From contig NZ_FNAU01000001.1 of assembly GCF_900102025.1 (NCBI RefSeq), positions 124,001 through 188,000 of the forward strand: a DNA stretch of 64,000 bases, read 5' to 3'. Positions 42,544-46,560 of the stretch are shown piece by piece. The position numbers and the translations under genes were made by a program. Within the stretch, counting starts at the first letter, position 1, and each line of letters begins with the position of its first letter. The notes below the pieces were generated by a model. That model was not told the DNA's origin, ran no database searches, and saw only the letters and a program-made list of their open reading frames with translations. This stretch comes from Actinobaculum suis (GTDB lineage Bacteria > Actinomycetota > Actinomycetes > Actinomycetales > Actinomycetaceae).

Positions 42544-42894
42544 CTAGCGATCCGCGATACGTTCGCGAATACGAGCCGCCTTACCGTGGCGATCACGCAG
42601 ATAGTAAAGCTTCGCGCGGCGCACAACACCACGAGAGAGCACTTCGATCGATTCGATCGACGGAGAATGCACGGGGAACTTACGTTCCACGCCAATACCG
42701 AAGGAAATCTTCCGAACGTCGAAAGTAGCCCGAATACCGTCACCCTGCCGGGCGATAACAACGCCCTCGAAGGCCTGGGTACGGGTGCGGTTTCCTTCAA
42801 CAACCTTTACGTTCACGCGAACGGTATCACCGGCACGGAACTCCGGGATGTCATCGCGGAGCTGCCCGGCATCAACAGCATCAAGGGTCTGCAT
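42544..42894 (-). CDS. rplS: 50S ribosomal protein L19
   Basis: 116 residues. [74 protein letters not shown] are standard L19. Located at the 30S-50S interface. GGAAGG precedes the ATG. Confidence 0.97.
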
Positions 42895-43140
42895 CAGTTT
42901 TCACCTTCCGCCACTGCGCGCAGGTCAGCAGCGATATGTACAACGTTTTAGACTCGCGTGCTCTACCCCCTGCGGCGGGCAAACGCACTTACGTGCGAGA
43001 AACAACCAAATCATTATGCCACAAGCGCGCGCATAATCCACTTGTCGCCAGTCACATAAAACGAGAGATTCGTCGCGCACGCACCCGTATCACCGCAGCA
43101 AATGTACACCAGTTTCGCTCCGCTCATCCCCCGCGGTGAC

Positions 43141-43200
43141 TAATTCCGCGATTTCGTACCGCATCCAAAGGGGCTAATTCCGCGATTTCGTACCGCATCC
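43141..43200. repeat. 26-bp direct repeat containing the CGCGGAATT element
   Basis: TAATTCCGCGATTTCGTACC plus GCATCC occurs at 43141-43166 and again, identical, at 43175-43200 (34-base period). Both copies hold the dispersed core CGCGGAATT on the minus strand. The surrounding gap 42895-43295 between trmD-GNAT and rplS has no gene; it must contain any rplS promoter. Confidence 0.88.
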
Positions 43201-43295
43201 GAAATGGCTAGTTTGCGTGTTGGGCCGGCCGTGGCCCCTAGCCTTTCTAACCGCCTAGTCTTTCTGGCTCCTTTGGTATTACTGCAGCTCCGGTT

Positions 43296-44795
43296 CTATT
43301 CCTCGGATTCCGGCCAGTCCGTGAGAATCGGACGGCCGAATACAAGGTCTTCGTTCAGAATCCCGCCTACTGTAAATCTGCGGTGGGCAAGTTTACGGAA
43401 CCCAAGTTTGCGGTAGGCCTTGTGTGCACGCCGGTTCTTGCCATTCGTGCCCAGCCACACATACGGAGCTTTATAAGCTGCGAGCCGCGTGCGATACTCC
43501 TGCAAAGTTGCCTGCCAGAGCGCGCCGGCCAGCCCCGAAGAGCGCCAGTCCCGATCCACATAGAACTTCGAGAGTTCTACGAGAGGGCCTTCCCGCAAAT
43601 CCCCAATCTGAGCATCTGGTGCGCCATCTTCCAGCCCGGCCACGCCATTTCCTTCCGGTATCAGACTGAGCGTATAAGCCACGGGTTCCCCATTCGCGTA
43701 GGCGGCGAGAGTAAGCCACGGCGAATCCGGATCCAAATACTCTGCAAAACGCTGCGGGCTCAGATTCTCAGCAATGAACTCCGCGATTGCCGCCTCCGTC
43801 ATTTCGGGTGGGCAAGCATCCGGGAAATTGCGAGCCGCGAGCGCCGCGAGCCGCGAAAAATCATCCCGATGTGGTTCTTCGATTTGCAGACGGCACGGGT
43901 GGGCACTGTTTTTGCTCAGATACCAGCCGTGCTGGGAAAGGGCCGCACGGTCTTTTTTATCAAGATCGCTTGCTTGCAGACGAGCGATCATATCCGGGCG
44001 GCGCGTAGCCGTTTTGGCAATAGCTTGGTCGCGCCGCAGGCGCGCCACTTTCCCATGATCGCCCGCAAGCAACACTGCTGGCACTTCCAAACCGCGCCAG
44101 GCAACCGGCCGAGTGTAATTGTCATATTCGAGCAAACCGGCCCGCCCATGCGATTCCTCTACCAAAGATTCCGGATTGCCAACCATCCCGGGAATCAGCC
44201 GGGCCACCGCTTCGATCAGTGCCAGAGCCGCAACTTCCCCACCGTTGAGCACATAATCGCCCAAAGAATACTCAAATACGTGCAAGCCGCGTTGCGCGTA
44301 ATGCGCGGCTACCCGGGCGTCAATGCCCTCATAGCGGCCGCACGCAAAAATAATATGTGCCGCGTGGGCAAGTTCGCCGCATGCTTCCTGCGTAAGCGGA
44401 ACCCCGGCCGGCGTCGGAATTGCCAACACGGTGTTTTGTGGAACCGGTGCGGTGGCGTTTTCCGGGGCCGGCGCTAGGGCGCTTTCCGAGAGTGAGGCGG
44501 TAGCGTTTTTTATAGCTGCCGCGGTGGCGTTTTCCGGGGCCTCCCCTACCGGGCTAGTTTGGGAACGCCGTGCGAGCAAGTCGTCGATGGCCGCGCCCCA
44601 CACATCTGGTTTCATTACCATGCCTGCCCCGCCGCCGGCCGGGGTGTCATCTACCGTGCGATGGACATCGTGCGTCCAGTCGCGCAGATTATGGGTCGCG
44701 ATTTCGAGAAGCCCTTTCTCCTGGGCTTTACCCAAGAGTGAAAGATCGAGGACGGAGAAGAATTCTGGAAATACCGTAAGGACGTCAATATGCAT
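43296..44795 (-). CDS. trmD: TrmD tRNA (guanine-37-N1)-methyltransferase fused to GNAT acetyltransferase
   Basis: 499 residues against 240-270 for plain TrmD. TrmD part 1-283: MHIDVLTVFPEFF, DDTPAGGGAGMVMKPD, the SAM-knot motifs FACGRYEGIDARV and LGDYVLNGGEVAAL, NPESLVEESH. An Ala/Thr/Pro/Asn insert (about 78-122, with repeated ENATA) interrupts it. GNAT part about 300-499: ELSKFYVDRDWRSSGLAGAL (acetyl-CoA loop, with RxxGxA-like RSSGLA) and RAHKAYRKLGFRKL. No stop or frameshift separates the two. TrmD methylates G37 to prevent frameshifting; the acetyl acceptor of the second domain is unknown. Confidence 0.92.
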   Translation of the reverse strand: MHIDVLTVFPEFFSVLDLSLLGKAQEKGLLEIATHNLRDWTHDVHRTVDDTPAGGGAGMVMKPDVWGAAIDDLLARRSQTSPVGEAPENATAAAIKNATASLSESALAPAPENATAPVPQNTVLAIPTPAGVPLTQEACGELAHAAHIIFACGRYEGIDARVAAHYAQRGLHVFEYSLGDYVLNGGEVAALALIEAVARLIPGMVGNPESLVEESHGRAGLLEYDNYTRPVAWRGLEVPAVLLAGDHGKVARLRRDQAIAKTATRRPDMIARLQASDLDKKDRAALSQHGWYLSKNSAHPCRLQIEEPHRDDFSRLAALAARNFPDACPPEMTEAAIAEFIAENLSPQRFAEYLDPDSPWLTLAAYANGEPVAYTLSLIPEGNGVAGLEDGAPDAQIGDLREGPLVELSKFYVDRDWRSSGLAGALWQATLQEYRTRLAAYKAPYVWLGTNGKNRRAHKAYRKLGFRKLAHRRFTVGGILNEDLVFGRPILTDWPESEE

Positions 44796-44797
44796 AA

Positions 44798-45379
44798 CTA
44801 TTTTTCGGGCTCCTCTGCCGGTGCCGGAGCGGATGGGGCCGGAGTTTCGGCGTCGCCATCCACGATAACTAGCTCTTCTTCCGAGAACAGGCCCGGCGGT
44901 GGATCCATCACCACACAGTTATCGTCTATATCTACTTCGGTAACGATTTCGCTAACGAAGGGAACGCGCGTGATCCGCCCATCTTGTTCGCGTACGAGTA
45001 ACAGGTCTTGGGCCACACCGTGTTCGAGCCCGGCCACAATCCCCAATTCATAGCCTTCCGGATCCAGTGCTTCCAGCCCGACGAGTTCGTGGGGATACCA
45101 GGCGTCATCTTCCGGTTCGTCTTCATCCGATTCGATCACGAGCCGCGTGCCCCGCAATTCTTCCGCGGTATTGCGGTTTTTCACCTCTTCGAACATAACG
45201 AAAAGCGAACCTTTGTACTCGCGGGTGCGGGCCACCGTGAGCGGCCCAAATTCCGCCGGATCTGTTTCGAGCTTATTACCGATTCGCAAACGTTTTTCCG
45301 GCGCATCGGTACGGACCTCGAGCCGCACCTCGCCCTTCAGGCCCTTCGCGGCGCCAATCACGCCTACCGTCAGCTGCAT
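44798..45379 (-). CDS. rimM: Ribosome maturation factor RimM
   Basis: 193 residues from MQLTVGVIGAAKGLKGEVRL; GGGAG precedes ATG 45379 (ATG 45391 is upstream without such a site). N-terminal RimM domain and PRC-barrel part (WYPHELVGLEALDPEGYELG, VPFVSEIVTEVDIDDNCVVM, PPPGLF). A short Pro/Ala/Glu tail follows. Binds S19 during 30S head assembly. Two bases separate its stop from trmD. Confidence 0.95.
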   Translation of the reverse strand: MQLTVGVIGAAKGLKGEVRLEVRTDAPEKRLRIGNKLETDPAEFGPLTVARTREYKGSLFVMFEEVKNRNTAEELRGTRLVIESDEDEPEDDAWYPHELVGLEALDPEGYELGIVAGLEHGVAQDLLLVREQDGRITRVPFVSEIVTEVDIDDNCVVMDPPPGLFSEEELVIVDGDAETPAPSAPAPAEEPEK

Positions 45380-45734
45380 TACGTCTCCCATTCGTGCCGT
45401 TTGTGCGCACTTGTGCCGTTTCTATTATGGCGGTTTATACGGCGCCCGTGGGGCGGCGGGGAGCCGTACCCACTTTTTGCAGAGCGCCCCGATGCCGCCT
45501 ACCAGCGCCTCATTATCGCATGCCGGAGCCTTGTTCCCGACGACGCCGAACCACCGCAATCTTCATACCCGTACCGGGTAGGTTACCCCGTCCCGTTCAG
45601 ATCAACACCATCCCTAGCTAGTTAAACACCACCCTGACTAGCCCATCGCCCTTCCGGCCAGAGCACCGCCGTCCACGGCCAGCTCAACGCGGCCCCGGGT
45701 AGATCAACGCACCCGCGGTGGCATGTACAGGAAA

Positions 45735-45814: not shown

Positions 45815-46054
45815 CTAGGCGATATCGGTTTCGATCACATCAACTCGCACGCCACCGCGCCCGGCAAGTGCATTCATTACCGTGCGTAGGGCTTTAGCTG
45901 TGCGCCCACCGCGTCCAATAACACGGCCCAGATCATCCGGATTCACGCGAACTTCGAGAAGTTCACCGCGGCGGGTTTCCTTGGAAACAACTTCCACTTC
46001 ATCCGGCGCATCTACGATTCCCTTAACCAGGTGTTCGAGCGCTTCAACTAGCAT
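45815..46054 (-). CDS. khpA: KH-domain RNA-binding protein KhpA (YlqC)
   Basis: 79 residues. LVEALEHLVKGIVDAPDEVE then the GxxG loop of the KH fold in GRVIGRGGRTAKALRTVMNA. Binds RNA, in other bacteria together with KhpB/Jag, and affects cell division and translation. TAATG overlap with rpsP. Confidence 0.94.
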   Translation of the reverse strand: MLVEALEHLVKGIVDAPDEVEVVSKETRRGELLEVRVNPDDLGRVIGRGGRTAKALRTVMNALAGRGGVRVDVIETDIA

Positions 46055-46560
46055 TAGTTCTCCTCAGTGGCCGGAGCTGCAGCTTCTGCAGAGCCTGCTT
46101 CTTCCGCCGCGGCTTCTGCTGCCGCTGCTTCTTCCGCAGCCTTCTTCTCAGCTTCTTCCTTGGCCTTGGCTTCGGCTACGGCAGCGCGATGCTTTTCAGC
46201 TTCATCCTGCACTTCCGCCACTGCCGCCTTGCGAGCTTCTTCCTTGTTAACGGTTTCCGGGAACCGCAGCCGGCCTTCCTGGCCATCACGATAGCCCTTG
46301 AACTTCTGCCAATCGCCGGTCACCTTGAGCTGCGCGCGGACCGGATCCGAAGGCTGTGCGCCCACGCCGAGCCAATACTGGACCCGTTCGGAATCAATAA
46401 GAATCGTGGACGGATTGGTGTTCGGATCGTAGTAGCCGATCTCTTCAATCACGCGGCCGTCGCGCTTCTTACGTGCATCGACGACGACAACCCGGTACTG
46501 CGCCGCACGGATCTTACCCATGCGCTTCAAACGAATTTTGACTGCCACTTGTGCGGTCAT
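46054..46560 (-). CDS. rpsP: 30S ribosomal protein S16 with Ala/Glu tail
   Basis: 168 residues; the S16 fold is the first 85 ([60 protein letters not shown]). The rest is an Ala/Glu/Lys-rich probable helix (about 105-168), of the kind seen in other actinobacterial S16 but long here. First gene of the rpsP-khpA unit. Confidence 0.96.

Follow-up and report, generated by a model that had tools for sequence, protein, structure and literature searches.

We found that the analysed stretch of Actinobaculum suis DNA (64,000 nucleotides, hereafter the window) contains a single gene in which TrmD is joined in frame to a GNAT acetyltransferase domain (Table 1). The minus strand carries this gene, and the plus strand in the same frame is not the gene. 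The sequence-only reading had described one 499-residue frame made of TrmD and a full GNAT; the profile matches, the open reading frame and the relatives in other genomes are all in agreement with that description. Both halves belong to known families, and their joining is a new domain architecture of known parts. We interpret the product as one bifunctional protein, a normal TrmD combined with a polyamine-type GNAT that would act on a small amine or amino-acid-like compound, and we assign this reading a probability of about 0.5.

Table 1 Features of the trmD-GNAT locus (coordinates within the window).
Feature	Coordinates	Strand	Details
rpsP (bS16)	46054..46560	-	PF00886
khpA-like gene, KH-domain RNA-binding protein	45815..46054	-	PF13083, 77.7 bits
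rimM	44798..45391	-	upstream of trmD; gap of two bases to the trmD start
trmD-GNAT fusion gene	43296..44795	-	499 aa; ATG at 44795, stop codon 43296-43298
TrmD domain, including the SPOUT knot	43971..44795	-	residues 1-275; NF000648, 281.7 bits
Ala/Pro-rich low-complexity insert in TrmD	44436..44558	-	about residues 80-120; mostly low model confidence
TrmD C-terminal tail (LDKKDRAALSQHGW) and short linker	43887..43970	-	residues 276-303
GNAT acetyltransferase domain	43326..43886	-	residues ~304-490; PF00583, AlphaFold2, Foldseek
Glu407 codon	43575..43577	-	alignment with catalytic Glu92 of LcGNAT
Tyr412 codon	43560..43562	-	alignment with LcGNAT Tyr97
Tyr461 codon	43413..43415	-	alignment with LcGNAT/PaiA Tyr142 (proposed general acid)
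rplS (bL19)	42544..42894	-	PF01245; downstream of the fusion gene after 401 bases

The genes at this locus follow the order rpsP-khpA-rimM-trmD, then rplS, with 423 bases between khpA and rimM. Because rimM and trmD are separated by only two bases, rimM and trmD-GNAT are probably co-translated. The interval between the fusion gene and rplS (42895-43295) contained no Rfam match at the gathering threshold and no minus-strand open reading frame longer than 51 aa; it possibly holds a separate promoter or leader of rplS. No antitoxin gene was found among the scanned neighbours (S16, KhpA-like, RimM, L19, signal peptidase and RNase HII). AlphaFold2 modelled the whole fusion chain from a 30-row alignment with a mean pLDDT of 87 and a pTM of 0.69.

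TrmD is an essential enzyme and a drug target, usually described as a stand-alone protein, which methylates tRNA G37, is needed for reading-frame maintenance and is known to dimerise. The N-terminal part of the window protein matched the TrmD model NF000648 over its full length (cut-off 220 bits; residues 1-270, model positions 1-221 of 221) and PF01746 with 181 bits, and the motifs GGGAGMVM, GRYEGID and S.GDYVL.GGE are all intact. Columns of the knot/SAM site and the tRNA site (G54-M61; G153, R154, Y155, E156, G157, I158 and D159; G179, D180, Y181, V182 and L183) were invariant in 30 rows. The features shared with known TrmD are a complete domain scoring over the curated cut-off, the unchanged motifs and the usual position between rimM and rplS, whereas the C-terminal GNAT and a 40-residue low-complexity insert set the window protein apart. 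The best reading of the N-terminal part is an ordinary TrmD, with m1G37 methyltransferase as its predicted function.

The insert, which lies between the N-terminal and knot parts and contains repeated ENATA-like units, had pLDDT values below 50 at residues 87-91, 93-95 and 97-113. Its length depends on the genome, being about 40 residues in the window and near zero in many relatives. A second peculiarity concerns residue 214, which we take to be equivalent to the general base Asp169: this position is Glu in 82 of the 82 aligned TrmD rows of the order (some of them duplicate loci, which were kept), and Asp in the matching position of the Mycobacterium TrmD structures 7rey and 6nvr. A link between this Asp-to-Glu change and the fusion was rejected, since fused (68) and other (14) rows alike have Glu; the latter include one broken gene (G006) and one decayed gene (G030).

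The fusion gene is not an assembly, sequencing or annotation artefact. The same frame is open in dozens of independent genomes, which rules out an artefactual frameshift and leaves without support the sequencing error hiding a stop codon that the sequence-only reading had named as a case against itself. Its other such case, separate translation of the GNAT part, is equally unsupported: between residues 255 and 345 there are only two in-frame ATG, GTG or TTG codons, at 269 and 332, and a simple pattern test detected no Shine-Dalgarno-like motif before either of them. With the frame recurring as it does and both candidate starts near the joint lacking such a motif, an origin of the fusion in misassembly or misannotation, or an internal start giving a separate GNAT product, has an almost negligible probability.

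The spacing between the TrmD and GNAT profile matches fell into two classes, one of 2-5 residues (12 sequences, all from f13, a fusion-bearing family defined below) and one of 26-40 residues (46 sequences, one of which has 83). We refer to long-joint fusions (26-40 residues in 45 of 46) as F1 and to short-joint fusions (2-5 residues in 12 of 12) as F2. The TrmD tail LDxxDRxxLxxxGW is absent from G048, the sole short-joint row in its alignment.

We then mapped the spread of the fusion over the window's family (f1, which we take to be Actinomycetaceae in the broad GTDB sense) and two further fusion-bearing families of the same order (f12 and f13). Among 59 sampled genomes, 37 (from 36 genera) belong to the window's family, and 32 of those 37 have TrmD plus GNAT in one frame; 28 of these fusions were read from DNA, and four (G002, G015, G020 and G034) from unbroken match rows only. 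The five exceptions are G006, which is cut by contig ends; G030, where a weak GNAT remnant survives (PF13420, 21.8 bits, below the Pfam cut-off of 24.3); and G013, G019 and G025, which show no GNAT. Across an order sample of 297 genomes, the fusion profile gave a continuous match in 23/24 f1, 2/2 f12 and 6/23 f13 genomes, and in the remaining 17 f13 genomes the TrmD and GNAT matches abut or occupy one open frame. All 23 f13 genomes consequently count as fused, 19 confirmed as a single open reading frame from DNA and four (G080, G122, G204 and G322) judged only from match positions and the lengths of their frames.

Of the 297 order genomes, 113 had a member of the GNAT family; 65 of these genomes lie outside f1, f12 and f13, seven of the 65 being weak matches in f3. 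Outside these three families no fusion was seen among the matches listed, where TrmD lies apart from GNAT, the nearest pair being 23 kb distant (G105). In a class sample of 246 genomes, the window's genome alone gave a continuous fusion match among the matches listed. Named genomes contained at least 582 GNAT relatives, and the best 80 of these comprised 9 fused proteins (four from Georgenia, one from Ruaniaceae bacterium KH17 and four from MAGs) and 71 unfused ones, from genera including Mycolicibacterium, Mycobacterium, Rhodococcus, Nocardia, Arthrobacter, Microbacterium, Cellulomonas and Aeromicrobium. As the same GNAT occurs unfused in many actinobacteria, it needs no TrmD to function.

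How often the fusion arose was addressed with GNAT and TrmD trees. In the GNAT tree, built with every second named standalone row, the short-joint class was set apart from the rest, one long-joint f13 GNAT (L081) fell among standalone sequences, and the remaining six stood next to two free-standing GNATs, the f13 placements having moderate support (80-91). This arrangement speaks for several fusions. In an AU test, a single clade of all fused GNATs was not rejected (p 0.566) and the likelihood was higher if they were held together; the long-branch rows L098, L099, L100 and L118 were left out, and the contig-cut L036 was counted as fused. The TrmD tree, built without identical rows and with both the broken G006 and the decayed G030 treated as fusions, did not resolve. 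One ancient fusion with later loss of the TrmD tail is sufficient and compatible with these data, and two or more origins are possible.

We next consider the GNAT half. It matched PF00583 with 42.1 bits (cut-off 20.7; residues 350-466), and the domain modelled alone by AlphaFold2 from a 28-row alignment adopted a confident GNAT fold (pLDDT 94.4, pTM 0.89), in line with the full GNAT fold claimed earlier; its activity is graded here as probable. VIA-align superposed the model on known structures with Z of at least 8 for 983 of 999 aligned chains. Searched against the PDB, the GNAT profile picked out 8osp (1.5e-28), 1tiq (PaiA; 4.3e-26) and 4e2a (1.1e-18), followed by a next match of 1.5e-8, and these three were also the top Foldseek matches of the model. 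VIA-align placed 3fix, 1tiq, 3fnc, 8osp and 1wk4 level at Z 19-21, with Naa60 at 18.5 and 4e2a at 17.1; with several GNAT types level, structural similarity by itself does not point to the polyamine type. Its output covers part of the GNAT families, and absences from it were not used.

PaiA of B. subtilis is a spermidine/spermine N1-acetyltransferase. The window GNAT shares its fold throughout the domain (VIA-align Z 20.1, 173 residues, rmsd 2.4), the Tyr97 and Tyr142 positions and the C-terminal G...D strand motif, and differs from it in being fused to TrmD, in an identity of 18-19% and in a score of 25.3 bits against the PaiA equivalog NF053587 (cut-off 250), to which the standalone relative L131 scored 48.9 bits. 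Against the RimI model TIGR01575 the GNAT half reached 17.7 bits (cut-off 86.4). Since it failed both equivalog models, it is filed under neither. The best match in both the profile and the Foldseek search was 8osp, the structure of LcGNAT from Lactobacillus curiae, an enzyme described in PMC10416765 as acetylating canavanine. LcGNAT shares 21-23% identity with the window GNAT, which has equivalents of its Glu92, Tyr97 and Tyr142; LcGNAT, however, is free-standing and associated with a guanidine riboswitch, whereas the window GNAT is fused, and no guanidine riboswitch was found at the gathering threshold in the window or near 15 of the 71 standalone named loci.

Mutagenesis described in PMC10416765 shows that Glu92, Tyr97 and Tyr142 of LcGNAT matter for catalysis; in the VIA-align chain numbering, they align with Glu407, Tyr412 and Tyr461 of the window protein. 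We compared these positions in 148 rows (47 F1, 12 F2 and 89 standalone; 14 duplicate loci and rows below 150 bits were left out, with L172 exempted). The positions of Tyr412 and Tyr461 were Tyr in 148 of 148, and with Lys410, Asn454, Ala457 and Asp483 they form a set of six residues invariant in fused and free rows alike. The Glu407 position was Glu in 129 of 148 rows (35/47 F1, 11/12 F2 and 83/89 standalone) and Tyr in 12 of the 47 fused F1 rows; in the GNAT tree these 12 fall on two family branches (L009, L010, L011, L013, L015, L023, L027, L028, L030, L036, L067 and L080). A Glu-to-Tyr change with the six invariant residues kept hints at a changed mechanism or substrate in those proteins. 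The acetyl-CoA P-loop R/Q-x-x-G-x-G/A is present in the window (R418..G421.A423); 108 of the 148 rows have His at position 418, and the loop is often degenerate, as it likewise is in polyamine acetyltransferases (PMC10416765). From these conserved features, the GNAT half is probably an active acetyl-CoA-dependent acetyltransferase.

In close pairs, purifying selection acts on both halves, with dN/dS of 0.09-0.47 for GNAT (14 pairs) and 0.04-0.25 for TrmD (the 13 pairs without dS saturation, the saturated one being the window's own pair). The GNAT half could instead be idle or structural, stabilising TrmD, buffering acetyl-CoA or simply being hard to shed from an essential gene. Such a role would suit its higher dN/dS in 12 of the 13 comparable pairs, the replacement of the Glu base by Tyr in the 12 F1 rows, and its loss or decay in 4 of 37 family genomes (G013, G019, G025 and G030), from which it follows that the GNAT half is dispensable. 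Six residues identical in every fused and free row and dN/dS well below 1 in 14 of 14 pairs argue against idleness, which we regard as distinctly unlikely.

Judged from these residues and matches, the GNAT half looks like an enzyme that works as polyamine-type acetyltransferases do. Its substrate class is guessed by analogy with the nearest relatives, at about 20% identity. In the favoured bifunctional reading, the TrmD part would methylate tRNA G37 and dimerise, and the GNAT part would be an acetyl-CoA-dependent N-acetyltransferase of the PaiA/LcGNAT polyamine type, recruited from a family of free-standing actinobacterial GNATs to which the mycobacterial gene adjoining zapE also belongs. Its substrate would be a polyamine, an arginine/canavanine-like molecule or another small amine or amino-acid-like compound, with Tyr461 as the putative general acid and Glu407 as the putative base. 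The fusion would tie the supply, and perhaps the place, of GNAT to the rpsP-khpA-rimM-trmD cluster. A search with PF01564, whose control was positive in 11 of 14 genomes, detected no spermidine synthase in the window's genome, which is about 95% complete; polyamine turnover would therefore need imported polyamines. Together with the negative riboswitch result, this gives no confirmation of either known class of substrate.

The position of the gene in a cluster beside ribosomal protein genes raises a different prospect, namely that the GNAT half modifies a translation protein (the N-terminus or a lysine of a ribosomal protein, TrmD or a neighbour), with the fusion siting it on nascent ribosome/tRNA complexes. 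Its fold is also near that of N-terminal acetyltransferases (Naa60, Ard1 and RimI, VIA-align Z 16.6-18.5). The best RimI/NAT profile matches, however, were 5e-8, which is 10-20 orders weaker than 4e2a, 1tiq and 8osp; a RimI-like gene lies elsewhere in the genome with tsaB- and tsaD-like genes; and the neighbours scanned at two standalone loci, one from Mycolicibacterium and one from Cellulomonas, included no ribosomal genes. We therefore consider modification of a translation protein unlikely, though worth keeping in view. Identity of the GNAT half with RimI was rejected on its score against TIGR01575 and on the better candidate elsewhere in the genome, which at 69.5 bits is also below the cut-off of that model. 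This candidate sits on another contig of the window's genome in a tsaB-like - rimI-like - tsaD-like cluster (L181 402-2872; the tsaB-like call is from PF00814, and the tsaD-like gene was recognised by eye), and its protein is extended at the N-terminus by a long segment containing repeated ATYEG..AGESHAE units.

We weighed in the same way a GNAT half that targets tRNA itself or the amino acid which an aminoacyl-tRNA carries, as a second nucleoside modification or as a quality-control acetylation, with TrmD as the tRNA-binding partner. The GNAT half of the window has a net charge of -2 and a pI of 6.0, slightly acidic, and mean GNAT net charges were -3.1 (46 F1), +0.7 (12 F2) and -5.0 (87 standalone), which give no sign of an RNA-binding enzyme. 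The short tether to the TrmD C-terminal domain, in both joint classes, favours a tRNA substrate, as do the less acidic charges of fused than of free GNATs and the proposal, in part of PMC10416765, that the related LcGNAT keeps canavanine out of proteins. The window GNAT half is still slightly acidic, however, and the same enzyme is also found unfused, away from trmD. By profile it is moreover closer to small-amine enzymes than to toxins that acetylate aminoacyl-tRNA, the KacT/TacT-type structures 6gts and 5zgn being weak profile matches (~7e-6) among general GNATs. A tRNA or aminoacyl-tRNA substrate is accordingly quite improbable in our estimation. Even more doubtful is a translation-fidelity module on the TrmD tRNA-binding domain, in which GNAT would acetylate a wrong amino acid or amine, namely an arginine or canavanine analogue, free or on tRNA; were it true, one protein would guard both the reading frame (through m1G37) and amino-acid identity across an actinobacterial clade.

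The sequence-only reading had gone on to suggest a second modification of RNA or ribosomal proteins linked to the methylation step. The part of its interpretation that joins a G37 methyltransferase in frame to a probably active GNAT stands, but the second translation modification is not supported: the nearest solved relatives include enzymes acting on polyamines or canavanine, the GNAT half is far below the RimI cut-off and mildly acidic, and unfused homologues exist.

A partial precedent exists in the TrmD-Tm1570 double-knot fusion of Calditerrivibrio nitroreducens, whose TrmD part is still active according to passages of PMC11187310. That protein likewise carries a second enzyme domain at the TrmD C-terminus, but the partner is a SPOUT methyltransferase domain (PF09936) rather than an acetyltransferase, and the bacteria are different; PMC11187310 contains no word starting with acetyl or GNAT. 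In the open-licence full-text literature we found no description of a TrmD-acetyltransferase fusion (domain databases may list the architecture uncommented), and the parts of PMC1282579 that mention TrmD and GNAT do so in separate contexts only. A structure of the TrmD-Tm1570 protein is presumably PDB 8b1n.

A close counterpart of the GNAT half is the free-standing actinobacterial GNAT adjoining zapE in Mycolicibacterium, Rhodococcus, Nocardia and others. It belongs to the same sequence family, and the 89 standalone rows keep all six residues that never vary in the fusions; it differs in being unfused. Among the matches listed, zapE, a RibD-type reductase and a TAP-like hydrolase adjoin the free GNAT in about 30 mycobacterial and related loci, a neighbourhood that we take to be the Rv2667-Rv2672 order of M. 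tuberculosis, with the free GNAT as Rv2669. The Cellulomonas standalone locus has neighbours other than this set. Because the Cellulomonas neighbours differ from the mycobacterial ones, the standalone neighbourhood was set aside as uninformative about the substrate. Passages of a review list the substrate of Rv2669 as unknown (PMC10407107), and Rv2669 is named a GCN5-like N-acetyltransferase in part of another paper (PMC11056549).

The free-standing family has unassigned members in mycobacteria, rhodococci and nocardiae, and a conserved GNAT fixed on TrmD in nearly the whole of the window's family would give a clue to their role. The fusion raises the testable question of what GNAT acetylates, and whether its action reaches tRNA, the ribosome or the pool of amino acids; should the substrate prove to be a small amine, the fusion still shows an accessory enzyme welded to an essential one and kept over dozens of genera. 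Two f1 genomes with the fusion, G295 and G314, also carry a second, distant free-standing GNAT (L094 3618-4448 and L095 2207-3001), which matches the same profile weakly, with 74 and 82 bits, respectively.
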